DNA of 44,627 nt, taken from the NCBI GenBank assembly GCA_903951405.1, contig CAJBBV010000169.1, positions 1 to 44,627 on the forward strand, written 5' to 3'. The notes below the pieces were generated by a model. It was given only the letters and a program-made list of their open reading frames with translations, ran no database searches and was not told the origin of the DNA. Shown piece by piece: positions 31,914 to 44,560 of the stretch (position 1 is its first letter; each line of letters opens with the position of its first letter). A program made the translations under genes and the position numbers. The DNA is from an uncultured bacterium. Its GTDB lineage: Bacteria > Bacteroidota > Bacteroidia > Chitinophagales > Chitinophagaceae.

Positions 31914-32465
31914 ATGAGTCAGAATCATGAGGAGCTAATTGTTCTGGTGGATGAGCACGACAATGAAGTTGGGGTGATGGAGAAGATGGAAGTGCATCGC
32001 AGGGCATTGTTACATAGAGCATTTAGTGTATTTATTTTTAATTCCCAGGGAGAGATGATGTTACAAAGAAGGGCATTGGGTAAATACCATAGTGGTGGAT
32101 TATGGACCAATACATGTTGTAGCCATCCATATTCAACTGAAACAATTATAGATGCAGCTCAGAGAAGGCTTTTTCAGGAGATGGGCTTTAAAACTGAAGT
32201 GAAACCTATTTTTCATTTTATTTATAAGGCTGCTTTGGATAATGAATTAACTGAATATGAATTTGACCATGTGCTCTTAGGTTACTATGACGGATTTGTG
32301 GAGATTAATCCATTGGAGGTAGGAGATTATTGTTTTCGAACTGTAGAGGATATAAGTAATGATTTAAAAAATCACCCCCAAAAATATACTGCTTGGTTTC
32401 ATATTGCATTTCCAATGCTCCTCGATTTTCTGGCAAAGGAAAATAGATTAAGCAATGCAGGGTAA
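31914..32465 (+). CDS. idi: Type I isopentenyl-diphosphate delta-isomerase
   Basis: This 183-residue Nudix-fold enzyme interconverts IPP and DMAPP, feeding isoprenoid synthesis. The catalytic Cys is in NTCCSHP (residue about 66). The Nudix-like helix is AAQRRLFQEMGF. Others: MMLQRRALGKYHSGGLW and YEFDHVLLGYYDG. The length is typical. It starts 9 bp after the peroxidase gene and overlaps the carotenoid desaturase by 11 bp, so it likely raises precursor supply for the carotenoid genes. Confidence 0.95.
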   Translation: MSQNHEELIVLVDEHDNEVGVMEKMEVHRRALLHRAFSVFIFNSQGEMMLQRRALGKYHSGGLWTNTCCSHPYSTETIIDAAQRRLFQEMGFKTEVKPIFHFIYKAALDNELTEYEFDHVLLGYYDGFVEINPLEVGDYCFRTVEDISNDLKNHPQKYTAWFHIAFPMLLDFLAKENRLSNAG

Positions 32466-33942
32466 AAAAGTCATCATAATTGGTGCTGGTATTGCTGGCA
32501 TTGCAACGTCAATACGATTGGCTGTGATGGGATATGATGTGGAAGTTTTTGAGAAAAATGACGTTGCAGGAGGAAAGATGTATTTAATTGAAAAAGGAGG
32601 GTTTACGTTTGATGCTGGGCCGTCACTATTTACTCAGCCAATTAATATTGAGGAACTCTTTGCTTTTGCTAACGAACCTATTGATGAATATTTCCAATAC
32701 TCAAAAGTTGACATCGCGTGTAAGTATCATTTTGAAAATGGCAAACGAATTAATGCATTTACACAGCCTGCGGATTTCGCATCTGAAATGAATGAAAAGA
32801 CTGGAGAGCCTGTTCATAATATAATTCGGTATTTAAAAAATGCAGAGCGTGTTTATGAAAAAGTAGGAAGTATTTTTTTGAATTTCTCTCTACATCGTTT
32901 TTCTACTTGGTTTCATCCTAGGGTTTTGATAGCACTGAAGACTATTAAACTCTCCTATTTATTCAATACGTTAGATAAGTTCAATCGAAAGCGGTTTGCC
33001 ACTCCTGAAGCTGTACAAATTTTCAATCGGTTTGCTACGTACAATGGGAGTAATCCATATAAGGCTCCAGGTATGTTAAGCTTAATACCACATCTAGAAC
33101 AAAACGAAGGAACATTTTATCCTATCGGAGGAATGATATCTATTCCTGATGCATTAACGAAACTTGCGCAACATAAAGGGGTGAAGTTTAATCTCGGAAA
33201 AGGGGTTGATAAAATCATACTAGAAGCGAGCTCCGTAAAAGGGGTGTTGTCGAAAGGAGAATTTAATCACGCCGACATTGTGGTAAGTAATGTTGATGCC
33301 TATTATACGTATAAAAATCTTATTGAAGATAATCGGAAAGCGAATAAAGTGTTGAGGCATGAACGAAGTAGTAGCGCATTGATTTTTTATTGGGGGATGA
33401 ATAAGACATTTCCTGACTTGCACTTGCATAATATATTTTTTAGTGAAGAGTATGGAGAAGAGTTTAAGCATCTCTTTGAGTTAAAGCGTTTTTATGTTGA
33501 CCCCACTATATACATTAACATTACTTCTAAAATGGAATCTATACATGCTCCTGAAGGAAAGGAAAATTGGTTTGTGATGGTGAATGCTCCTGCCGCTGAA
33601 GTTGATGATTGGGGAGGCCAGATTGAGCAGGTAAGGGCATCCATACTTAAAAAGTTAAATAGAATGTTAGGTGTTGAGTTGGATGGCTTAATTGAGACTG
33701 AGGAAGTGCTTACTCCCTCAGGTATCCAACTAAGAACTGATTCATTCCAGGGCTCATTGTATGGAACAAGTTCAAATTCAATTTGGTCAGCTTTTTTGAG
33801 GCATGCTAATTTTTCATCTCATATTCAAGGACTTTATTTTGCAGGTGGAAGCGTTCATCCGGGAGGAGGCATCCCACTTTGTTTAAAGGGAGCGAAAATA
33901 GTGGCAGAGTTAATCGGCAAAACAGATGTTGGTCAAGGATAA
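32455..33942 (+). CDS. crtD: Carotenoid desaturase of the phytoene-desaturase family, CrtD-like
   Basis: This 495-residue FAD enzyme has the dinucleotide motif VIIIGAGIAGIATSIRL (about 5-21), EVFEKNDVAGGKM and the FDAGPSLFTQP segment. The C-terminal FAD/substrate signature is GLYFAGGSVHPGGGIPLCLKGA. The family covers CrtI (phytoene), CrtN and CrtD (hydroxycarotenoid 3,4-desaturase). Placement directly before cruF favours CrtD, since hydration at C-1' and desaturation at C-3',4' act together in saproxanthin/myxol-type pigment pathways. CrtI cannot be excluded by sequence inspection. It overlaps idi by 11 bp. Confidence 0.8.
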   Translation: MQGKKVIIIGAGIAGIATSIRLAVMGYDVEVFEKNDVAGGKMYLIEKGGFTFDAGPSLFTQPINIEELFAFANEPIDEYFQYSKVDIACKYHFENGKRINAFTQPADFASEMNEKTGEPVHNIIRYLKNAERVYEKVGSIFLNFSLHRFSTWFHPRVLIALKTIKLSYLFNTLDKFNRKRFATPEAVQIFNRFATYNGSNPYKAPGMLSLIPHLEQNEGTFYPIGGMISIPDALTKLAQHKGVKFNLGKGVDKIILEASSVKGVLSKGEFNHADIVVSNVDAYYTYKNLIEDNRKANKVLRHERSSSALIFYWGMNKTFPDLHLHNIFFSEEYGEEFKHLFELKRFYVDPTIYINITSKMESIHAPEGKENWFVMVNAPAAEVDDWGGQIEQVRASILKKLNRMLGVELDGLIETEEVLTPSGIQLRTDSFQGSLYGTSSNSIWSAFLRHANFSSHIQGLYFAGGSVHPGGGIPLCLKGAKIVAELIGKTDVGQG

Positions 33943-33989
33943 TCAATTACCGAACTATTTTTTCATAAAATAGTTATAGATTAGTGAAA

Positions 33990-34700
33990 ATGCAACATGC
34001 CTCAAATAAGATAAGAGATAATAAAAATTCAAGAATATTTTTCTTGTCCATTTTTCTATTATTACTCATTCATGTAGCAGGGGGGATTGGTATGATATAT
34101 TTTGATACTTCTCTTTTTGCTAAGGCAACACCTATTAATTTGCTTGTGATGTTTTTCTTGATTTTATGGAATCAAGAGGATTTAAATAATCGGTTTTATC
34201 TAGCTATTTTGATAGCTTTTTTAATAGGTTTCCTTTCAGAGGTAGCAGGTGTTAATGGTGGCTTTTTATTTGGACACTACAGTTATGGAAACATATTAGG
34301 GTTTAAGTTAATGCGTGTTCCCGTTCTAATCAGTCTGAATTGGTTTGCAGTTGTTTATTCTTCTTATGTTACTGCCTCTTTAATGCTGCGATTTTTGGGA
34401 TATGATATAAGCAATTCTGCCGTTGTCAAACTGCAGTCCCTTATTGTTCAGTGTTTGCTAGCAGCGAGTATAGCTACCTTCTTCGATTGGTTGATGGAGC
34501 CTACTGCCGTTCAGCTTGGATTCTGGGCATGGGAGAATGAGATCATTCCATTGTTCAACTTTATTAGTTGGTTCGGTATTAGTTTTTTTATTTCAGTTGT
34601 ATTTGCCTGTTTTCGACTTTCAAACAGCAATCGATTTGCCCCTATTCTATTGGTGGTACAATCTATTTTTTTTCTATTTCTTCGCATCTTTTTAAAATGA
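33990..34700 (+). CDS. cruF: CruF-type carotenoid 1',2'-hydratase (DUF422 membrane protein)
   Basis: This 236-residue protein has about seven hydrophobic helices and the DUF422 signature LSEVAGVNGGFLFGHYSYGNILGFKLMRVPVLISLNWF (residues about 82-119 in pieces). Also visible is FFDWLMEPTAVQLGFWAWE, containing the conserved D-W-x-M-E-P acidic motif. The family hydrates the end of gamma-carotene or related C-40/C-50 precursors in the membrane. The GTG at 33984 is an alternative start, two residues earlier. It lies 47 bp downstream of the desaturase. Genes for phytoene synthase and cyclase are not in the window. Confidence 0.87.
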   Translation: MQHASNKIRDNKNSRIFFLSIFLLLLIHVAGGIGMIYFDTSLFAKATPINLLVMFFLILWNQEDLNNRFYLAILIAFLIGFLSEVAGVNGGFLFGHYSYGNILGFKLMRVPVLISLNWFAVVYSSYVTASLMLRFLGYDISNSAVVKLQSLIVQCLLAASIATFFDWLMEPTAVQLGFWAWENEIIPLFNFISWFGISFFISVVFACFRLSNSNRFAPILLVVQSIFFLFLRIFLK

Positions 34701-34789: not shown

Positions 34790-36424
34790 ATGCTTATAAC
34801 TATGACAGACAAGCAATTATATTTTCATGCATCTATGCTAAGTGCCTGGTCTGCATTCTCTGATGAGTTTATTGCTGTATGGGACGATAGCAAAGAGAAC
34901 TTATTGTATTTCAATGATGCATACGTTCATTTTTTCGGCGTTGCTCAAAAAGATGATTTTCAAAGAGAGTTCGATTTTTTGGGATACCGAAAACATGAAT
35001 TGACGTCGGATATAAAGTCTTTAGTGAAGGATACCATTCAAAAAAATGGACTCTGGAAGGAAGAGGTTTTATTTAGAAAGAAATCCGGAGAAGTCTATTT
35101 GGGAAGACTCGATATCGCGGCATTTAAATTCGAAGGGACTACCCATTACTTGCAGCGTATTATCAATATAGATAATCAGCGGTTATTTTCTGAAAATCTA
35201 TTCAAGGAGATAAAGAAATTTGAGGCGTTATTCCAATATGCCACGTTGCCAATTTTATTAGTTAATAAATTAGGTTCAATAATTCTTGCTAACACTCAAG
35301 CCTTAACATTATTTGGTTATACAGAGGCGCAAATGAGTGCATTGAAAGTAGAGGATTTGATACCGAAGGAATACCGACCAGGCCATACTAATCATCGGAG
35401 TGACTATGAAAAAAATCCTCAAACAAGACCCATGGGTCGAGGTATGGAATTGTTTGCATTAAAAAAGTCAGGTGAAAAATTTCCAGTAGAGGTTAGTTTA
35501 GGTCATTATCAAATCGAGGATGAGACTTATGTCATTTCCTTTATAATTGATATTACTAGGCGGCTTGAAATAGAAGGGGCATTGAGAAAGCAGACTGCTG
35601 AAATGGAAAATGCTAAAAAAGAAATTGAAAAGTGGAATGAGGAACTAGAAAATAAAGTAGACTTAAGAACTCAAGAGTTGACGGATACACTGACAAAGCT
35701 AGAAAAGTCAAGAGATGAGTTAACTACTGCATTGAGCAAAGAAAAAGAGCTAAGTGATCTTAAATCCCGTTTTGTTTCAATGGCATCGCATGAATTTAGA
35801 ACACCACTGAGTACAATCCTTTCCTCTGTATCACTAATTAGTAAGTATACCCAATCTGAGGATCAAGATAAGAGAGATAAACATATACAGCGAATTCATT
35901 CTGCTGTCAGCAATTTAACCGATATCTTAAATGAGTTTCTATCGCTTGGTAAGATTGAGGAGGGAAAAATCCAAGTTCATTTCAGCTCATTTAATCTAAA
36001 GGAGCAGACGCAGTTAATTGTCAATGAAATTGCTAATATTTTGAAGCCTGGTCAGCAAATTATATATGAGCATTCCGGCGAAACACAAGTTAATCTTGAT
36101 TTGTCATTACTACGAAATATCCTAATAAACCTTATTTCCAATGCCTCGAAATTTTCTCCAGAAAATTCTGTTATTGAGATAAAAAGTGTAGTTTCTGAGA
36201 AGTCAATTTCACTAACTATTAGAGATAGGGGAATAGGCATACCAGAAGAAGATCAAAAGCATTTATTTGAACGATTTTTCCGAGCCAAAAATGTAACTAA
36301 TATTCAAGGCACTGGGCTTGGCTTACATATTGTTTCACGTTATGTGGAGCTGATGAATGGAAATATTTCTGTCGAAAGTGTTTTGGAGGAAGGATCAACT
36401 ATCAAAATACAGTTTAACATATGA
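34790..36424 (+). CDS. Soluble PAS-PAS sensor histidine kinase
   Basis: This 544-residue kinase has no membrane segment, so it senses an intracellular signal. A first PAS-like domain occupies about 15-130 (YFNDAYVHFFG, FRKKSGEVYLG), and a second clear PAS domain 140-258 (FEALFQYATLPILLVNKLG, LFGYTEAQM, KKSGEKFPVEVS, IIDITRR). A coiled coil follows at 262-325. HisKA has His334 in ASHEFRTPL. The ATPase domain shows N-box NILINLISNASKF, G1 RDRGIGIPEED and G2 GTGLGLHIV. It is fused by an ATGA overlap to the receiver-CRP regulator downstream. No heme or flavin ligand is evident by eye. An ATG at 34802 is an alternative start. Confidence 0.93.
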   Translation: MLITMTDKQLYFHASMLSAWSAFSDEFIAVWDDSKENLLYFNDAYVHFFGVAQKDDFQREFDFLGYRKHELTSDIKSLVKDTIQKNGLWKEEVLFRKKSGEVYLGRLDIAAFKFEGTTHYLQRIINIDNQRLFSENLFKEIKKFEALFQYATLPILLVNKLGSIILANTQALTLFGYTEAQMSALKVEDLIPKEYRPGHTNHRSDYEKNPQTRPMGRGMELFALKKSGEKFPVEVSLGHYQIEDETYVISFIIDITRRLEIEGALRKQTAEMENAKKEIEKWNEELENKVDLRTQELTDTLTKLEKSRDELTTALSKEKELSDLKSRFVSMASHEFRTPLSTILSSVSLISKYTQSEDQDKRDKHIQRIHSAVSNLTDILNEFLSLGKIEEGKIQVHFSSFNLKEQTQLIVNEIANILKPGQQIIYEHSGETQVNLDLSLLRNILINLISNASKFSPENSVIEIKSVVSEKSISLTIRDRGIGIPEEDQKHLFERFFRAKNVTNIQGTGLGLHIVSRYVELMNGNISVESVLEEGSTIKIQFNI

Positions 36425-37476
36425 ACACCATTTTATTAATTGAAGACAATTTAGAAATTAGAGAAAATACTGCAGAAATATTGGAGTTAGCCAACTACCG
36501 TGTTATTACCGCAGAAAATGGAAAGATTGGCATTGAAAAGGCATTGGCAGAAATTCCTGATCTTATTATTTGTGATATCATGATGCCTGTTTTAGATGGA
36601 TATGGTGTGCTTCATTTGCTCAATAAAAATGAAGCCTTAAAAGATATTCCATTTATTTTTTTAACGGCAAAAACGGATCGCCAAGATTTTAGGAAAGGCA
36701 TGGAAATGGGTGCAGATGATTATATTACTAAGCCATTTACTGAGCTTGAATTACTTAATGCAATTGAGCAGAGGTTGAAGAAATTAAGTATCATTCGTAA
36801 AAAGTATGAATCAAATCAACTGGGCGTAAAAAATTTAATTGAAGATATTGGGAGACAAGATGTTCTTAAAGAGTTGTCAACTAATAGAAATGTAAATACG
36901 TATAAAAAGAAGCAAGTTGTTTATAGCGAAGGTAATCACCCGAACAGGTTGTTCTATGTTCAAAAAGGTAAGGTTAAGCTCTTTAAGTCTAATGATGATG
37001 GCAAAGATCTAACCATTGGACTTTTTGGTCAAGGAGAGTACTTCGGTTATATGCCATTACTTGATCATTCTGTATACAAAGAAACGGCTGAGGCTATGGA
37101 AGACTCTGAGATAGCAATTATACCGCGAGAGGAGTTCGATGATTTGATTAAGGAGAATCCAATAGTCATGAAAAAGTTTATTCAAATTTTGGCTGGTAAC
37201 ATTACAGAAAAAGAAAATCAGTTGCTTGGGTTGGCATATAACTCATTAAGAAAGAGGGTAGCTGATGCCTTATTGATGTTGCAAAAAAAATTCAGTGACG
37301 GAACTACTCCATTCTCAATTCATATTTCAAGGGAAGACTTGGCGAATATTGCTGGTACTGCTACGGAGTCGTTAATAAGAACACTCAGCGATTTTAAAGC
37401 GGAAAAATTGATTGATATAAAGGATGGGAATATCATTTTAACCAACGAAAAAAAGTTAGCTAACCTTTTTAATTGA
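36421..37476 (+). CDS. Receiver-CRP/FNR fusion response regulator (REC, cNMP-fold, HTH)
   Basis: This 351-residue protein joins an N-terminal receiver domain (1-120; acid pocket E8-D9, phospho-acceptor D52 in ICDIMMP, T82, K104 in YITKPF) to a cyclic-nucleotide-binding fold (about 150-265; VVYSEGNHPNRLFYVQKGKVKLF) and a CRP-type winged HTH (about 270-345; ISREDLANIAGTATESLIRTLSDF). The phosphate-binding Arg-Ala-x-Ala of true cAMP receptors is replaced by YKETAEAME, and no N-terminal Cys cluster is present. So it is neither a cAMP nor an FNR iron-sulfur sensor. Its start overlaps the kinase stop by 4 bp (ATGA), marking an obligate pair. Nearby hsp20 and cbb3 genes are candidate targets. Confidence 0.92.
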   Translation: MNTILLIEDNLEIRENTAEILELANYRVITAENGKIGIEKALAEIPDLIICDIMMPVLDGYGVLHLLNKNEALKDIPFIFLTAKTDRQDFRKGMEMGADDYITKPFTELELLNAIEQRLKKLSIIRKKYESNQLGVKNLIEDIGRQDVLKELSTNRNVNTYKKKQVVYSEGNHPNRLFYVQKGKVKLFKSNDDGKDLTIGLFGQGEYFGYMPLLDHSVYKETAEAMEDSEIAIIPREEFDDLIKENPIVMKKFIQILAGNITEKENQLLGLAYNSLRKRVADALLMLQKKFSDGTTPFSIHISREDLANIAGTATESLIRTLSDFKAEKLIDIKDGNIILTNEKKLANLFN

Positions 37477-37477
37477 T

Positions 37478-37894
37478 TTAGAATTCAGCTATCTGAAGTG
37501 AGGATAAATATGTATTATAATCGCTTTTGATGAGCATGTAATCTTTTTCTATCAAGGCTACCTGATCCTTTAAATGTTTATGGATTTTAACTAACTCAGA
37601 GAATGAGGTATCTGAGTATTTCAATTTTAGGTTTCTCCATTTTTCAGATTCTTTTTTAAGATCATAAATTACGTGATCTAATAAATCATCTTTTATGATG
37701 AATTGATTATGAAATATTTCGGCTTGTTCGAGACCCTTCTTATCTTGTATCTGACTAGTTACCTCTGATAAACGGGTTTTGAAAAAAGTATTTTCTTGTT
37801 TAATGTATTCAATGAGCCTAATGCAGGCATCATTTTCAAATAAAAACTGTTTGTATTTTCCGCTAATCATTATTGTGGTTGCTATCATAGCCAT
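37478..37894 (-). CDS. Small coiled-coil protein, unknown function
   Basis: This 138-residue product is unrecognised. Its core runs KYKQFLFENDACIRLIEYIKQENTFFKTRL, read at about 13-42. Long helices follow (GLEQAEIFHNQFIIKDDLLDHV, LKKESEKWRNLKLKY, HKHLKDQVALIEKDY), all compatible with coiled-coil bundles. There is no signal peptide. The start may be the ATG at 37894 or an internal ATG at 37870. It converges with the receiver-CRP gene 1 bp away and lies 44 bp downstream of hsp20 on the same strand, so it is probably a stress-related partner or co-transcribed gene. Function is unknown. Confidence 0.72.
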   Translation of the reverse strand: MAMIATTIMISGKYKQFLFENDACIRLIEYIKQENTFFKTRLSEVTSQIQDKKGLEQAEIFHNQFIIKDDLLDHVIYDLKKESEKWRNLKLKYSDTSFSELVKIHKHLKDQVALIEKDYMLIKSDYNTYLSSLQIAEF

Positions 37895-37938: not shown

Positions 37939-38385
37939 TTAATGCACATTGATTTTTTGGTGAGACGTTTTTTTAGCTTCTTCTTTTTTTGGTAGAAGTA
38001 ATTTAAGTTCACCATGAACATAGGTTGCATCAATTTTTGATGAATCGATGTTCTCTGGGAGCGTAAAAGATCTTGAAAAAGATGAATAGCTATATTCTTT
38101 TCGAGTATATAGGTCATCTTTCTCTTCCTCTTTTTCTTCTTCACGTTCTGCACTAATTGTTATCAGTGTGCCATTGACATCAATTTTAAAATCCTTTTTT
38201 TCTAAGCCAGGAGCGGCCATGATAATTTCATAGTTATTACCTGTTTCCTTGATGTTTACAGCAGGGGCTTGATTTAGATAGGGCCATCTGCTGTCAACTA
38301 ATTCATTCCAGGGTTTAAAAAAATCTTCAAAAACAGATGCATTTAAAAGACTAGGCCTGAGTAGTGTTCTTCCATTTGCTGACAT
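37939..38385 (-). CDS. Hsp20/alpha-crystallin small heat-shock protein
   Basis: This 148-residue ATP-independent holdase has the alpha-crystallin domain at about 42-140. Inner strands: AVNIKETGNNYEIIMAAPGLEKKDFKIDV. Lid and ridge: LITISAEREEE, SFSRSFTLPENIDSSKIDATYVHGELKLLLPKKEEAKK, with the expected A-x-x-x-n-G-x-L motif. The N-terminal arm (RPSLLNASVFEDFF) is short. It has its own upstream region with a -7-like box. It precedes the coiled-coil gene and follows the cbb3 cluster. Confidence 0.95.
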   Translation of the reverse strand: MSANGRTLLRPSLLNASVFEDFFKPWNELVDSRWPYLNQAPAVNIKETGNNYEIIMAAPGLEKKDFKIDVNGTLITISAEREEEKEEEKDDLYTRKEYSYSSFSRSFTLPENIDSSKIDATYVHGELKLLLPKKEEAKKTSHQKINVH

Positions 38386-38424: not shown

Positions 38425-38432
38425 CAAATTTA
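38425..38432 (-). promoter_or_regulatory. Candidate -7 box for hsp20
   Basis: On the minus strand TAAATTTG (38432 down to 38425) matches the Bacteroidota -7 consensus TAnnTTTG, about 40 nt before the hsp20 ATG. At the expected distance upstream TTCG (38450-38447) is one base from the -33 TTTG element. No HrcA CIRCE repeat is visible. Confidence 0.38.
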
Positions 38433-38486
38433 TTTATCAATATCCTCGAATCTAGTAACTCCAATCATTAAAAAAAATGACATATA

Positions 38487-39197
38487 TCACTCGGTGGCGC
38501 AATGTATTTTTTCATTTTTCCCAACCAATAGTGAAGGACTCATAAAATTTCCCTGGTTCATGCCACGAATGATCAGTAATATGGCCATTAGGGCTATTAT
38601 TGCTGGATACCATTTTGTCAAGTATTGTCTAATTGGAAATTGTAGCTTGATCCCAATTATCATCACAGCAAGTAGCATAGGAAGGGTTCCTATGCCAAAA
38701 AAGGTCATGAATAATGCTCCGTGTATTGGATCTTGCATTGTAGTAGCTCCTGCTAAGGCCACGTAAACCAATCCACAAGGAAGCAGTCCATTTAGAACGC
38801 CACCTATCAATACTGGAGAGATATTTATTTTTTTTGCAAGAGCGTATATTTTATTTCGAATGTGTTTATAGCCAATGTATTGTTGAATTTTAGTCTCTAT
38901 GGAAGGGAACACGATTATTACAAGCATTATACTGAGTATGCCAATACCAAGGGTTAATGATATATTTTGTTGGAAGCCGAAGAATTTTATGGAAGTTCCT
39001 ATAGTGCCAAATAATGCCCCCCATAATGCATATATGAAAATTCTTCCTGAATGATAGGTCGTCCACGTTTTTAGGGGCATCCGACTTTCATTTTTTGTGA
39101 ATAAGCTTGTTAGCATCAGTGGTCCACACATGCCAGCACAATGGAAGCTTCCTGCTAACCCAATGAGAATTGCTGATATAATAAATTGTACGGACAT
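38487..39197 (-). CDS. SafE/TauE-like membrane protein of the cbb3 assembly cluster
   Basis: This 236-residue protein has about six membrane helices and the motif GLAGSFHCAGMCGPL (about residues 13-27) with a Cys-x-x-x-Cys arrangement. This group is widely linked to cbb3 gene clusters and annotated as sulfite exporter TauE/SafE; in this context it more likely assists copper or heme delivery than sulfite export. It starts 1 bp after ccoH and is the last gene of the cluster. No hairpin is seen before hsp20. Confidence 0.88.
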   Translation of the reverse strand: MSVQFIISAILIGLAGSFHCAGMCGPLMLTSLFTKNESRMPLKTWTTYHSGRIFIYALWGALFGTIGTSIKFFGFQQNISLTLGIGILSIMLVIIVFPSIETKIQQYIGYKHIRNKIYALAKKINISPVLIGGVLNGLLPCGLVYVALAGATTMQDPIHGALFMTFFGIGTLPMLLAVMIIGIKLQFPIRQYLTKWYPAIIALMAILLIIRGMNQGNFMSPSLLVGKNEKIHCATE

Positions 39198-39198
39198 C

Positions 39199-39636
39199 CT
39201 ATAGCGTCATATTTTTTTCGAAGTAGTATTTTTTCCCATCTTTAATCCATGTAAGTTGTAGTTGAAATAGCCCTTTAACTGGCACTTTATATGATATAGT
39301 TGATTTTGCACCTGCTATATCACAGTTTCCGCTCACATCTTTTGATCTATCTGACGCACAGTATAATTTCCAACTCCCTTTGTATGTTGATTCGTTGAAT
39401 TCCGAAGGGAAAGATAGTTGGATTTGGCCCTCTTTCGCCAAGGTTTTAATCACGCTTGACAGGGAGGCCGTATTAGCAGACTGATCTATAACTTCTTGGT
39501 ATTTCAGTTCTTCAGCATAGTAATTCTCAGATACTAGATCTTTTTTTTCTATTGATGATCGATATACCATGAATAGTATTCCAATAATAAAAACACTATA
39601 AATAATCACAATTGTATAACCCCAATTTATTTTCAT
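39199..39636 (-). CDS. ccoH: CcoH/FixH family cbb3 oxidase assembly protein
   Basis: This 145-residue protein has one N-terminal membrane helix (WGYTIVIIYSVFIIGILFMVY) and a periplasmic domain. The motif KDLVSENYYAEELKYQEVID (about 32-51) is the conserved FixH feature. It is needed for stable assembly of the cbb3 complex. It lies between ccoG and the SafE-like gene with 1- to 9-bp gaps. Confidence 0.88.
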   Translation of the reverse strand: MKINWGYTIVIIYSVFIIGILFMVYRSSIEKKDLVSENYYAEELKYQEVIDQSANTASLSSVIKTLAKEGQIQLSFPSEFNESTYKGSWKLYCASDRSKDVSGNCDIAGAKSTISYKVPVKGLFQLQLTWIKDGKKYYFEKNMTL

Positions 39637-39645
39637 AAACTATAA

Positions 39646-41055
39646 TTAAGAACCTACTGGTCCGATGAATGATGTTTTTTTACTTGCTATTTTTATTTTG
39701 TTGATATAGAAGTTGACTTTTATATCACTTTTTCTTTTTCTAATTAATTCTGATTTTTTCTTAATTAAAAAGGTCAGAACAGCATAACCCTCTTTGTTGA
39801 TTGTCGGCTGCTTTCCGAGTACTTCGATTGATCCTTCTTTTTCATCAATGCCTAAGGTTAGTGTAATATCCTTATGCGTTTTATTGAACATCCTTGCCGA
39901 GTACAAATTGCCAATATATCCACTGGGAAGAGTTTGGTAAATCATACCTTGTGTTCGTAAAATGGTAATATCAACATCATCTCGTGTGAGGAGCATAGAG
40001 ACTAGAGCAGAAGCAATCATGATAAGTACAACTGAATAAGCTTTAATTCTAGTAGTGAATTTTAGTTTTTGATTTTTTACAATATTGTTTTCGGACGCAA
40101 ATCGTATAAGGTTTTTGGGCAGCCCAATATTTTCCATGATTTCATTGCATGAATCAATGCAGGCGGTACAGTTTATGCATTCAAGTTGAGTTCCATTTCT
40201 GATATCGATGCCAGTGGGGCATACTCTTACGCAAGCCTTACAATCAATGCAATCACCAAGTTGATTTTCAGCTGAAGCTTTCTTTCCTCTAGGTTCACCT
40301 CGGATATAATCATATGCAACTACAATTGAATTTTTATCCAGTAAAACACCTTGTAGTCTGCCATATGGACAAACAACTATACATACTTGTTCTCTGAACC
40401 AATAGTAGACGAAAAAGAAAACAGTAGTGAATCCAATTATGGAAAAAAAAGTACTTAAGTGTGATGATATTCCTTCGTTAACATACCTAATCACTTCATC
40501 CATACTGATTAGGTAAGCCATAAAGTAATTAGCTAGGATGAACGATACGCTGTAGAAGATAAATATCTTAGTTATTCTTTTTCTGATTTTATAACCATTC
40601 CAAGGCATAGCCTTGAGCTGTTGTTGTTTGGTATAATCACCTTCAATCCAGTATTCAATTTTTCTAAAAACCATTTCCATGAAAATGGTCTGTGGACAAG
40701 CCCATCCACAAAAAACTCTACCAAATATTACTGTGAATAGAATGATGAAGACCACAAAGGTTAGCATTCCTACGGCAAAAATAAAGAAATCTTGTGGCCC
40801 AAAAATTTGTCCAAATATGATGAACTTTCTTTTTAGAATATTCATCATGATTAACGGATCACCTTCAACTTTTATCCAGGGTATAGCAAGGAATAGAATT
40901 AAGTATACTATAGAAAAGAGGCTTCTTTTGTTATATAATGTTCCTTTTGGTTTTTTAGGAAATAAATAATTGCGTTTCCCTTTCTCATCGATTGTTGCAA
41001 TTTTATTTCTAAACCCTTGGTCGATTAACTCTTCTTTCCTCGTTTCATCAATCAT
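39646..41055 (-). CDS. ccoG: CcoG/RdxA/FixG polyferredoxin-like cbb3 assembly protein
   Basis: This 469-residue protein has multiple membrane helices and FCGWACPQTIFMEMVFRKIE, with its redox-active Cys pair, near residues 120-140. Two 4Fe-4S ferredoxin-like motifs follow (CIDCKACVRVCP and CINCTACIDSCNE). The C-terminal about 110 residues form the IgD-like domain typical of the family. It takes part in copper reduction for cbb3 maturation. It follows ccoP by 2 bp. Confidence 0.95.
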   Translation of the reverse strand: MIDETRKEELIDQGFRNKIATIDEKGKRNYLFPKKPKGTLYNKRSLFSIVYLILFLAIPWIKVEGDPLIMMNILKRKFIIFGQIFGPQDFFIFAVGMLTFVVFIILFTVIFGRVFCGWACPQTIFMEMVFRKIEYWIEGDYTKQQQLKAMPWNGYKIRKRITKIFIFYSVSFILANYFMAYLISMDEVIRYVNEGISSHLSTFFSIIGFTTVFFFVYYWFREQVCIVVCPYGRLQGVLLDKNSIVVAYDYIRGEPRGKKASAENQLGDCIDCKACVRVCPTGIDIRNGTQLECINCTACIDSCNEIMENIGLPKNLIRFASENNIVKNQKLKFTTRIKAYSVVLIMIASALVSMLLTRDDVDITILRTQGMIYQTLPSGYIGNLYSARMFNKTHKDITLTLGIDEKEGSIEVLGKQPTINKEGYAVLTFLIKKKSELIRKRKSDIKVNFYINKIKIASKKTSFIGPVGS

Positions 41056-41057
41056 CT

Positions 41058-42218
41058 TTAATTGGTGGTTGTTGAAGCTTTACTAATTAGGGTATCCTGT
41101 GCAGGTGTGTTGGTTGTTAAAACTCCTTGTGGCGCTTTTGCATTTGGTGGATTAGTTCCTTTGAGTGAGGCTATAAAGCTGGCTAGATGTTTAATCTGGA
41201 TCGGGCTATACATGGATTGCCATGATTGCATTCCTTTTTCAGGGTAGCCAATTTTAATGGTATTATAAATATTATTCATCGTGCTCCCATGAATCCAATA
41301 ATTATCCGTCAAGTTTGGTCCAATAAGTCCTTCTCCTTTTGTTCCATGACAGGCTACACAGGTTTGAAGAAATATGGTTTTTCCTGCATCTATACCAGAT
41401 GCATCTGACATGCCGACGTTATTTTCATCAACGAGATTTTTAGTTTTTGCCTTATATATTTCTTCTTGTTTTTCCCCTTCAATCATTTCTGCAGCATATT
41501 CTTGTTCTGGATCTTTGCCTGTTCCACCAAAGTGGAAGTTGAATGTATAGATGATAGCCACAGCAATGGTAAAATAGAAGCCATATTTCCACCATGGAGG
41601 TAAAGGATTATCCAACTCTTTTATGCCATCATAGTCATGATCTAGTAGAATATCAGCTTCTTTTTCAATAGGAACTGCCCTTGTCATTAGATTTCTGTCA
41701 ATTCTTTTCCAGAGTGATAAGACTTTATTTGGTGTCTTAATTTTTTCAACAAGAATTTCTTCTTCACCGGCTAGATCTTTGAAAGCTCGTTTAGTCATGA
41801 AGGCTAAAAATAGGATTACTATAAATTCAAGTCCTATGACGGCTGACAGTGAATAAAAATCGAATGCATGCATTCCCCCGAAATTATTATTTTCAGATAG
41901 CCCTGTAACAATCTGACTCGTTTGTGATTTTGCAACACTTGAGAGTACAGATGTAATCATTATGAGTATTATTGTTTTGGCTAACAATCCTTCCTTTCTT
42001 TTTTTATGTATTGCCCTAGAAATGGTTAGTAAAACATGCGATAATAGCCATATGACTAGCACCATGACAATTGCAGAAATCAATAATAACGTTTCAAGCC
42101 AATTGATAGAATTCGGGCGTTCTGTAGATGTACTTTGTGCAAATAGATTTGTTGCAAAAACTATGCATAGTAAAAGAGTAACGATAGTTTTACTTACTAT
42201 ATTCTTAGACATATTCAT
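41058..42218 (-). CDS. ccoP: cbb3 oxidase subunit III, CcoP (single heme c, extended N-terminus)
   Basis: From the ATG at 42218 the product is 386 residues. The canonical CcoP part starts at HDYDGIKELDNPLPPWW (about 194-210), with the membrane helix after it. It ends in one cytochrome c domain with CVACH (287-291) and a Met ligand in KGMQSW. The first about 190 residues add a signal-like segment and two to three helices not found in the proteobacterial subunit. Only one CxxCH is present, whereas proteobacterial CcoP usually has two. A TTG at 42221 was rejected as start. It passes electrons to CcoO. Confidence 0.92.
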   Translation of the reverse strand: MNMSKNIVSKTIVTLLLCIVFATNLFAQSTSTERPNSINWLETLLLISAIVMVLVIWLLSHVLLTISRAIHKKRKEGLLAKTIILIMITSVLSSVAKSQTSQIVTGLSENNNFGGMHAFDFYSLSAVIGLEFIVILFLAFMTKRAFKDLAGEEEILVEKIKTPNKVLSLWKRIDRNLMTRAVPIEKEADILLDHDYDGIKELDNPLPPWWKYGFYFTIAVAIIYTFNFHFGGTGKDPEQEYAAEMIEGEKQEEIYKAKTKNLVDENNVGMSDASGIDAGKTIFLQTCVACHGTKGEGLIGPNLTDNYWIHGSTMNNIYNTIKIGYPEKGMQSWQSMYSPIQIKHLASFIASLKGTNPPNAKAPQGVLTTNTPAQDTLISKASTTTN

Positions 42219-42234
42219 CAATTTGAAGTTTATA

Positions 42235-42399
42235 TTAATCTAATGGAAGATTTTCTAGTTCATCAATAGTTGATTTTTTCATATTGAAAACATAGATTAA
42301 CATCAATACGAAAAAGGTCATAAAAATGAATTGGGCGATGATTGGGTATACAGAAATGCCTTCTATTTTTTCTGCATATTGTTTTATGAATTTGAACAT
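42235..42399 (-). CDS. ccoQ: CcoQ-like small subunit of the cbb3 oxidase
   Basis: A 54-residue frame (MFKFIKQYAEKIEGISVYPI at the start, LENLPLD at the end) lies between ccoNO and ccoP, with a single membrane helix (IAQFIFMTFFVLMLIYVF). Position, size and topology match CcoQ/FixQ, which stabilises the complex. It begins 10 bp after the ccoNO stop and ends 16 bp before the ccoP ATG. The first dozen residues are amphipathic, as is usual for the Bacteroidota form. Confidence 0.82.
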   Translation of the reverse strand: MFKFIKQYAEKIEGISVYPIIAQFIFMTFFVLMLIYVFNMKKSTIDELENLPLD

Positions 42400-42409
42400 T
42401 ACTTATTTT

Positions 42410-44560
42410 TTAATTTTTCTTAAATTTTTCAATGTCTGTTCCAAGTCGTTGCATATAAGCAATGACTGCAATAACCTCTTTGTTCGATGGTGTTTTAATG
42501 CCATCCAATTTCAAGTTTTCAGTTATTTCTTTTTCTTGCTTAACTAAATCTTCATTCGCCCTTTCTGCATAACCTTCTTCATAGGGTACTCCTAATGTTT
42601 GCATAGCCCTTATTTTACTTGCGGTGGTGCTGGTGTCTAAGTCATGATCTAGTAAAGAAGTGTATGGCGGCATAATAGATCCTGTTGATACTGCTTGTGG
42701 GTCATCAAAGTGATTATAGTGCCAGCTGTTTGTTTTCTTATTGTTTCCGGATCCTTCTCTAGCCAAATCTGGGCCACTTCTTTTTGAACCCCATTGGAAT
42801 GGATGATCATATACAAATTCACCTGCTTTTGAATACTCGCCGTACCTCGCTGTTTCAGATCTAAATGGTCTAATCATTTGTGAGTGACAGGTATAGCATC
42901 CTTCTCTTACATAAATGTCCCGACCTTGCAACTCTAGGGGTGTATAGGGTTTTACACTTGAGATAGTGGGTACATTAGACTTGACTAAGAAAGTTGGAAT
43001 TAACTCTATAATTCCACCTATTAAGATGACAACTAAAGTCAATACTAGGAATGGCACTGGTTTTCTTTCGATTTTTCTGTGCCAATGCTCCGATGTGTGT
43101 TTTGCATATAGGTTCTCAAGTGCAGGAGCTTCAGCATCATCATCCACTACTCCTTTTGATCTCTTAACGGTAAGTATCAAATTATACATCATTAGCAATG
43201 CGCCGATTAAATAAAGTGTTCCACCAAATGCTCGTAGTGCATAGAATGGCTTCATCTGGTTCACAGTTTCCAGAAAGGGGTATTTTAAATTTCCTGCATC
43301 CGTAAATTCTTTCCACATCAAACTTTGTTTGAACCCAGCCCAATACATCGGGACTGCATAGAAAAGAATACCAAGCGTTGCTATCCAAAAATGGGTATTG
43401 GCTAATTTTTTAGAGTATAAATCCGTTTTGTAGATTCTCGGTACAAGCCAATATAGAATACCGAATGTCAGCATCCCATTCCATCCCAATCCTCCAATAT
43501 GAACGTGTGCGATAATCCAATCTGTAAAGTGAGCTATTGCATTTACGCTTTTTAATGAAAGCATTGGGCCTTCAAAGGTTGACATGCCATAGCATGTGAT
43601 GGCCACCACCATGAATTTAAGAATAACATCTTCCCGCACCTTATCCCATGCGCCACGAAGTGTTAGTAATCCGTTGATCATCCCTCCCCAACTTGGGAAA
43701 ATTAACGTGAAACTGAAAACAACACCGAGTGATTGTGCCCAGTTTGGAAGAGCTGTATACAGTAGGTGGTGAGGTCCAGCCCATATATAGAGGAAGATTA
43801 ATGCCCAAAAGTGAATGATAGATAATCTATAGGAGAAGACAGGTCGGTTTGCCGCCTTAGGTAGGAAATAATACATCAGTCCCAAATAAGGTGTCGTCAA
43901 GAAGAATGCTACAGCATTATGTCCATACCACCATTGAACAAGCGCGTCTTGAACACCTGCGTACCAAGAGTAGCTTTTCATAAAAGATATTGGAAGTTCG
44001 ATGGAGTTTACAATGTGAAGCACGGCTATGGTAACGAAGGTTGCTATGTAAAACCAAATTGCCACATAGAGATGCCTTTCTCTTCTTTTCAGAATGGTTG
44101 CAAACATGTTGAATCCAAATACAACCCAAACGAGGGTTATGGCAATGTCTATTGGCCATTCCAATTCGGCATATTCTTTACCTGTGCTCATGCCTAGCGG
44201 AATGGATATCGCAGCAGCTACAATAATAAGTTGCCATCCCCAGAAGTGAATTTTTCCTAGGAGATCACTTGCCATTCTTGTTTTAAGTAGGCGCTGAAGT
44301 GAGTAGTAGTATCCCATGAAGATACCATTACCTACAAAGGCGAAAATAACTGCATTGGTGTGAAGGGGTCGAAGTCGACCGAACGTAAGACCGATTGTAT
44401 TTTTGTCGCCTACTGGAATTCCTCCCAGATTCATTCCTGGAAAAACCATGAGGAGCGCTACCCATACTCCGATGAGCATACCAACTATGCTCCATATTAC
44501 TGTGGCATAGGCAAAATTTCGAACGATTTTGTTATCGTAGGAGAACTTTTCAATTTGCAT
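42410..44560 (-). CDS. ccoNO: Fused cbb3-type cytochrome oxidase subunits I and II (CcoN-CcoO)
   Basis: This 716-residue fusion is the catalytic core of a high-affinity terminal oxidase. The CcoN part (1-465, about 12 helices) keeps the low-spin heme ligand His67, the CuB ligand His214 (YGHNAVAFF), the Tyr of FSYRLSIIH, CuB pair His264-His265 (GPHHLL) and heme-ligand His352/His354 (AHVHIGG). After a polar linker (about 466-500) comes the CcoO part with its own helix (501-523) and one heme c site CYTCH (555-559). Fusion makes subunits I:II strictly 1:1. It starts the ccoNO-Q-P-G-H order and suits life at low oxygen. It follows a ccoS stop by 1 bp. Confidence 0.97.
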   Translation of the reverse strand: MQIEKFSYDNKIVRNFAYATVIWSIVGMLIGVWVALLMVFPGMNLGGIPVGDKNTIGLTFGRLRPLHTNAVIFAFVGNGIFMGYYYSLQRLLKTRMASDLLGKIHFWGWQLIIVAAAISIPLGMSTGKEYAELEWPIDIAITLVWVVFGFNMFATILKRRERHLYVAIWFYIATFVTIAVLHIVNSIELPISFMKSYSWYAGVQDALVQWWYGHNAVAFFLTTPYLGLMYYFLPKAANRPVFSYRLSIIHFWALIFLYIWAGPHHLLYTALPNWAQSLGVVFSFTLIFPSWGGMINGLLTLRGAWDKVREDVILKFMVVAITCYGMSTFEGPMLSLKSVNAIAHFTDWIIAHVHIGGLGWNGMLTFGILYWLVPRIYKTDLYSKKLANTHFWIATLGILFYAVPMYWAGFKQSLMWKEFTDAGNLKYPFLETVNQMKPFYALRAFGGTLYLIGALLMMYNLILTVKRSKGVVDDDAEAPALENLYAKHTSEHWHRKIERKPVPFLVLTLVVILIGGIIELIPTFLVKSNVPTISSVKPYTPLELQGRDIYVREGCYTCHSQMIRPFRSETARYGEYSKAGEFVYDHPFQWGSKRSGPDLAREGSGNNKKTNSWHYNHFDDPQAVSTGSIMPPYTSLLDHDLDTSTTASKIRAMQTLGVPYEEGYAERANEDLVKQEKEITENLKLDGIKTPSNKEVIAVIAYMQRLGTDIEKFKKN

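Follow-up and report, generated by a model that had tools for sequence, protein, structure and literature searches.

A FixL-like PAS kinase paired with a receiver-CRP fusion regulator in Bacteroidota: a proposed two-component low-oxygen switch

The kinase and Rec-CRP gene pair

The analysed DNA, referred to as the window, is the whole stretch of 44,627 nucleotides of contig CAJBBV010000169.1 (assembly GCA_903951405.1) from an uncultured member of the Chitinophagaceae (Bacteroidota). It contains the gene of a histidine kinase with a FixL-like PAS domain, directly followed by the gene of a receiver-CRP/FNR fusion response regulator (Rec-CRP). Gene calls in the scripts were longest open reading frames (ORFs), not annotation. 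The comparison set consisted of 80 loci, the best 80 of 581 confirmed stretches from a genome scan, nearly all labelled Bacteroidota, each with up to 10 kb of flank per side. In the list below, standalone relatives are CRP/FNR-type proteins that are not fused to a receiver, and HTH stands for helix-turn-helix.

34790..36424, + strand: PAS histidine kinase gene, 544 amino acids (aa) (ORF list, Pfam, hydropathy)
35789..35791, + strand: codon of the predicted phospho-acceptor His334 (Pfam HisKA and translation)
36421..37476, + strand: Rec-CRP gene, 351 aa (ORF list, Pfam)
36430..36768, + strand: receiver domain, residues 4-116, with D9, D52, T82 and K104 (Pfam, alignment)
36898..37158, + strand: CRP-type sensor fold, residues 160-246, lacking both the cAMP-contact residues and the Cys set seen in standalone relatives (Pfam, alignments)
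37252..37464, + strand: CRP/FNR-type HTH, residues 278-348, recognition helix GTATESLIR (Pfam; compared with standalones)

The stop codon of the kinase and the start codon of Rec-CRP formed an ATGA overlap. Pfam detected PAS_9 (154-256), HisKA and HATPase_c in the kinase, and Response_reg (4-116), cNMP_binding (160-246) and HTH_Crp_2 (278-348) in Rec-CRP. From the N- to the C-terminus the kinase consists of a region without a Pfam match (PAS-like by eye), the FixL-like PAS, a coiled coil (by eye), HisKA with His334, and HATPase_c. The maximal Kyte-Doolittle mean over 19 residues was 1.35 with no strongly hydrophobic stretch, so the protein looks soluble. An earlier reading of this locus (the original prediction) had proposed a cytoplasmic PAS kinase with His334 as the phospho-acceptor, and both the Pfam domains and the low hydropathy agree with it.

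A kinase gene was located directly 5' of Rec-CRP in 76 of the 80 loci. In three of the other four a contig end is no more than 50 bp away, and the remaining one (L065) has an interrupted kinase frame. With L065 excluded, the gap between the genes was 30 bp or less in 65 of 75 loci; the genes overlapped in 28 and overlapped by 4 bp in 19. The pairing described in the original prediction was thus upheld, although the words obligate and strict were too strong, as the ATGA overlap is not universal.

In the 80 aligned Rec-CRPs, the window included, D9, D52 and K104 were invariant, and position 82 was T in 65 and S in 15; D52, T82 and K104 had been named correctly before, and D9 joins them. The sensor fold was aligned to Thermus thermophilus CAP (4ev0), whose E, R and S positions we take to be cAMP contacts. 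These were replaced by Y (62) or H (18) and by Y (77) or H (3) at the E and R positions, respectively, and the S position was variable, with K the commonest (33/80) and S in 3. The original statement that the pocket lacks the cAMP-binding motif therefore holds for the family, and cAMP-type control of Rec-CRP is not favoured. After residue 130, no Cys was present in 55 of 81 Rec-CRPs, one in 24, two in 1 and three in 1. Since the Cys set of the standalones is lost, an Fe-S cluster in Rec-CRP is not favoured either. The cNMP-type fold together with the CRP HTH places the protein in the CRP/FNR superfamily. The AlphaFold2 (AF2) model of full-length Rec-CRP had a pTM of 0.43, which is too low for claims on the domain arrangement.

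Rec-CRP was detected in 38 of 247 phylum-sampled genomes (own genome included; E <= 1e-40), all within the class of the window, and in 49 of 60 genomes of its family. A ccoNO match was present in 33 of the 38. The following genes adjoin the pair in the window.

37939..38385, - strand: hsp20, predicted target (Pfam, operator scan)
38487..44560, - strand: cbb3 oxidase cluster with SafE-like, ccoH, ccoG, ccoP and ccoNO genes (ccoNO and SafE-like by hidden Markov model (HMM); ccoH, ccoG and ccoP by eye)

That hsp20 and cbb3 genes lie next to the pair, as originally described, was confirmed in the window by ORFs and HMMs. Across the loci, the conserved linkage was to the oxidase: 34 of 80 loci had cbb3 genes (ccoNO, ccoP or ccoG) within their stretch, as did 16 of the 37 loci whose flanks both reached at least 9 kb, whereas hsp20 was matched in only 13 of 80. 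One locus, L057, is a contig of a metagenome-assembled genome labelled Azovibrio restrictus with a Bacteroidota-like Rec-CRP locus; the bin is probably mislabelled or mixed.

The PAS domain of the kinase

The PAS domain was compared with proteins of known structure by sequence and by fold.

35210..35575, + strand: FixL-like PAS domain (kinase residues 141-262), predicted haem pocket (PDB phmmer, AF2 model, Foldseek, VIA-align)
35384..35386, + strand: PAS His199 codon; the residue aligns with the proximal haem ligand of FixL (orthologue alignment)

The phmmer search of PDB with this domain resulted in 16 sequences; all 14 with E < 1e-6 were FG214, FixL or DosP, and the best match was FG214 (10JX). 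The AF2 model of residues 137-271 reached a pLDDT of 87.2 with an alignment of 57 rows (window included, PAS score at least 60, two truncated rows omitted). With this model, Foldseek ranks 1-22 were all FixL, FG214 or DosP chains. FixL haem domains were also at the top in VIA-align, with Z up to 17.0 over 116 residues, where some non-FixL PAS domains reached 14-16.

His199 occupies the F-alpha position of the FixL proximal haem ligand, which we take to be His200 in the usual numbering. This position was H in 60 of 63 orthologous PAS domains, L in 1 and cut off in 2; the count covered PAS scores of at least 25 and excluded 13 of 76 kinases, whose PAS scored lower or was truncated, in several cases by a contig end. 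Passages of the PubMed Central (PMC) article PMC10468136 state that haem binding in the FixL/DosP cluster is determined primarily by this His and that 60% of the cluster has it, compared with the 60 of 63 determined here. According to a passage of PMC13060918, the proximal haem ligand of FG214 is H156. The ligand His of the FG214 haem PAS stands at the aligned position, although FG214, as described there, is an HTH-PAS one-component protein and not a kinase. Taken from these alignments, the kinase PAS would bind haem via His199.

The PAS with His was found in 16 of 16 cco-linked loci and in 14 of 21 unlinked loci when both flanks were at least 9 kb (Fisher p 0.012, kinship ignored). A different or divergent sensor was present in 7 of the 37 fully flanked loci, none of them cco-linked. 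In L040, L064, L078, L080, L088 and others, the kinase has a divergent PAS or lacks the His. These kinases, none cco-linked within the stretch, are possibly paralogues answering another signal.

Predicted operators and promoter geometry

Within intergenic sequence of the 80 loci, the palindrome TGAY-N4-RTCA occurred 237 times compared with 11.55 in shuffles (approximately 20-fold), and 37 pairs of sites were spaced exactly 22 bp. Both the motif and the promoter shuffles preserved base content only. The distance from the site centre to the first base of TAnnTTTG, which we take to be the Bacteroidota -7 element, was 29 bp in 35 cases and 51 bp in 46, compared with about 0.31 per position in shuffles. 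If TAnnTTTG ends near -5, these distances would put the site centres near -41.5 and -63.5. Among the 46 cases with a site at 51, the six fixed bases of the slot 22 bp nearer to the promoter showed no more than one mismatch in 36; each of the 27 other offsets tested gave 0-3 of 46. Genes facing such intergenic DNA had a site in the case of ccoNO (26/29), ccoI-like (16/19), hsp20 (10/11) and Usp (7/10), and also the kinase cluster (30/68) and a cluster of small proteins (22/32); the gene identities were determined by Pfam on some representatives and, for ccoI, by eye. The statistics support the prediction that FNR-like regulators of this kind would recognise TGAY-N4-RTCA and act from about -41.5 and, in tandem, from about -63.5.

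Of 33 regions from Rec-CRP genomes, 30 had a site in the 700 bp upstream of ccoN, in contrast to 1 of 20 regions from other classes. The other-class regions came from 20 high-scoring genomes among 119 such cbb3 genomes, and some of the stretches were short. Within the window's family, the exact tandem was present in 17 of 21 Rec-CRP genomes (53 places, hand-summed) and in 2 of 13 genomes without Rec-CRP (p 0.0003), and the reversed tandem control in 0 of 34. The 21 of 49 known positives and the 13 known negatives were hand-picked, and the Fisher test ignores kinship and genome size.

The operator elements of the window itself lie 5' of hsp20.

38478..38489, - strand: predicted distal operator TGATATATGTCA at about -63.5 (exact motif match)
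38456..38467, - strand: degenerate second operator TGATTGGAGTTA, 22 bp promoter-proximal at about -41.5, with one fixed-base mismatch (read from the sequence; slot statistics)
38425..38432, - strand: TAAATTTG, a TAnnTTTG match 51 bp from the distal operator centre (promoter-element scan)

The relaxed tandem pattern occurred at five places in the whole genome of the window, and its reversed control at none. On contig C185 it lies between ccoI (by eye) and ccoS (HMM), before ccoS-ccoNO, with TAnnTTTG at 29. Gene order suggests that this contig probably abuts the right end of the window, and its tandem is the predicted promoter of the window's cbb3 cluster. Three others were found at the start of a small ORF preceding ccoI, 77 bp before a BON-domain gene and near a second small gene. 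Only the ccoS place and the hsp20 site had TAnnTTTG at one of the two promoter distances, 29 or 51; the other four tandems were without it. The predicted operators before hsp20 and ccoS-ccoNO lend partial support to the original suggestion of low-oxygen or redox stress control, which had missed the FixL-like PAS and the kinship with FNR.

The small-protein cluster that often faces an operator includes relatives of an uncharacterised protein of 138 aa (window 37478-37894, - strand), which had no Pfam or NCBIfam match at 0.001. Such relatives were located near Rec-CRP in 20 of 80 loci, and the genes at L092:1072-1452 (-) and L200:361-846 (+) are similar to it by eye. On the other side of the pair, directly 5' of the kinase (window 31914-34700), are idi (by eye), crtI (by eye) and a CruF-like carotenoid gene, which were matched only in the six closest loci.

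The proposed circuit, its alternatives and known systems

The pair is likely to be a two-component low-oxygen switch, a compressed oxygen circuit similar to FixL-FixJ-FixK. The kinase would bind haem through PAS His199, and an O2-dependent (or NO-, CO- or redox-dependent) change would alter autophosphorylation of His334; the sign of the response to O2 is one that we infer. The phosphate would then pass from His334 to Asp52 of Rec-CRP, where it may stabilise the active form of the CRP-type dimer, a role otherwise taken by cAMP or an Fe-S cluster. Rec-CRP would read the TGAY-N4-RTCA sites of its own genome, and the predicted output is the cbb3 oxidase, hsp20, Usp and often the kinase gene.

The closest non-fused CRP-type proteins to Rec-CRP by score (ten genomes searched) were the standalones. 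Of the 27 standalones found in ccoN regions, 24 had four Cys when counted by eye, C-x2-C plus two more at fixed spacing. A tree of the CRP part, with 65 rows, placed 36 Rec-CRP rows in one group (90/91) and the 15 standalones in another (87/76). This similarity suggests that Rec-CRP has a receiver where its nearest standalones have a probable Fe-S sensor, and the simplest reading would be one gain of the receiver with loss of that sensor. The original prediction was right in its anatomy and broadly right in function, although the most similar standalones are FNR-like four-Cys proteins and not cAMP receptors. In three genomes of one genus (L129, L146, L148), standalones 5' of ccoN have the same recognition helix without the four Cys, and these may represent a third sensing mode. 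The sole other-class region with a standalone, L169, also has a site, further from ccoN.

An alternative, which we regard as unlikely, is that the operators belong to the standalone FNR-like regulators and that Rec-CRP reads other sites or merely modulates. Several observations weigh against the proposed circuit. Of 20 same-class regions without Rec-CRP, 16 had a site in the 700 bp preceding ccoN, which rules out a motif specific to Rec-CRP, and the 29- and 51-bp promoter distances recurred in regions without Rec-CRP in 12 and 5 cases, respectively. Because of this recurrence, the operator and its geometry are common to Rec-CRP and standalone genomes. The 5-kb ccoN stretch also contained a standalone CRP/FNR gene, mostly with the nearly identical helix GTATES.IR, in 13 of 33 regions from Rec-CRP genomes, in 13 of the 20 same-class ones lacking Rec-CRP and in 1 of 20 from other classes. 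Both tandem-bearing family members without Rec-CRP carry a standalone (these two of the 13 were checked), and the exact tandem was not found in 4 of 21 Rec-CRP family genomes, one of the same genus included. Outside the family it was rarer and the link weak (4 of 33 ccoN regions with Rec-CRP and 1 of 20 without). The fork joining Rec-CRP and standalones to other CRP-type rows was unresolved, so Rec-CRP is not claimed as a proven sister of the standalone clade. In the window's own genome, no operator was seen in the scan upstream of the kinase, the tandem on C192 lies inside a coding frame, and TGA half-sites could be read by another CRP-type gene with a different helix (L002) or by a fragment at a contig end in which no HTH was seen (L008). 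On the other hand, no standalone GTATES protein was found in this genome (91% complete, L008 cut). In G037 and G190, Rec-CRPs were the only proteins found with a GTATES-like helix (cut-off 1e-9), yet the sites upstream of ccoN (L105, L100) persist, and within the family the exact tandem tracks Rec-CRP.

It is also possible, although doubtful, that the PAS uses the same His to sense free haem, redox state or another ligand instead of O2 via haem. The FixL distal residue, presumably Arg220, is not kept, being Met in the window kinase and variable among relatives, which counts against O2 sensing as well. FG214, the best sequence match, is mainly bis-His and responsive to redox or imidazole according to passages of PMC13060918. 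The closest folds to the PAS model are, however, FixL O2-sensor domains, the oxidase used under oxygen limitation is among the predicted targets, and the His is kept in all 16 fully flanked cco-linked loci. Quite improbable is a CRP-type pocket that still binds a nucleotide or small molecule, with phosphorylation as a second input only: the sensor fold and Y or H at two pocket positions are retained, but the cAMP-contact positions are replaced family-wide and the receiver residues are invariant.

Beyond the low-oxygen switch itself, an evolutionary course can be proposed to which we give about an even chance. In a Bacteroidia clade of FNR type, a receiver would have replaced the Fe-S oxygen sensor in a single event, and with a FixL-type haem kinase enlisted as partner the FixL-FixJ-FixK chain would have been reduced to two proteins. 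In the window's family these activators would bind as side-by-side dimers on twin operators spaced 22 bp (-41.5 and -63.5), and in some lineages an Fe-S FNR of the same cell would use the operator too.

No description of a receiver-CRP fusion in Bacteroidota was found in the open-access PMC literature, among the titles and abstract openings of the matches listed, nor in passages of PMC9953108, PMC9723704 and PMC8510549. Low-oxygen sensing and cbb3 control in environmental Bacteroidota are little described in the literature searched. New beyond the original prediction are the FixL-like sensor, the operator with its geometry and the FNR-like kinship. The sensor, regulator, predicted operator with promoter geometry and target set are all named and testable. 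A single DNA-binding family may have exchanged one sensory input, a probable Fe-S cluster, for phosphorylation and kept its operator; the evolution of regulatory wiring therefore becomes a directly testable question.

In mycobacteria, the haem kinases DosS and DosT act on the response regulator DosR, which controls a hypoxia set with a small heat-shock protein and Usp; the haem is in a GAF domain and the output is of NarL type. The pair described here is similar in the order of haem kinase and regulator and in the small heat-shock protein and Usp set, and differs in the GAF haem and the NarL-type output. FNR acts on a TGA-N6-TCA core from the -41.5 position. Rec-CRP shares its fold and, as predicted, its core and position, without the Cys set of the standalone relatives and with an N-terminal receiver. 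In the rhizobial FixL-FixJ-FixK cascade, a FixL-type PAS kinase, a response regulator and a CRP/FNR activator lead to the cbb3 target, and the output domain of FixJ is an HTH of LuxR/NarL type. Rec-CRP has a CRP-type output domain, unlike FixJ, and is not a separate activator under a response regulator, unlike FixK. Receiver and activator are in one protein with no fixK-like intermediate transcription step, and the host belongs to Bacteroidota. Passages of PMC7888657 describe hFixL-FxkR-FixK and FnrN of Rhizobium leguminosarum as both feeding fixNOQP. Both rhizobial arrangements resemble the present one in the FixL-type PAS kinase, response regulator, CRP/FNR-type activator and cbb3 target, and in R. 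leguminosarum two kinds of oxygen sensor, a haem kinase and FNR, likewise converge on the oxidase genes.

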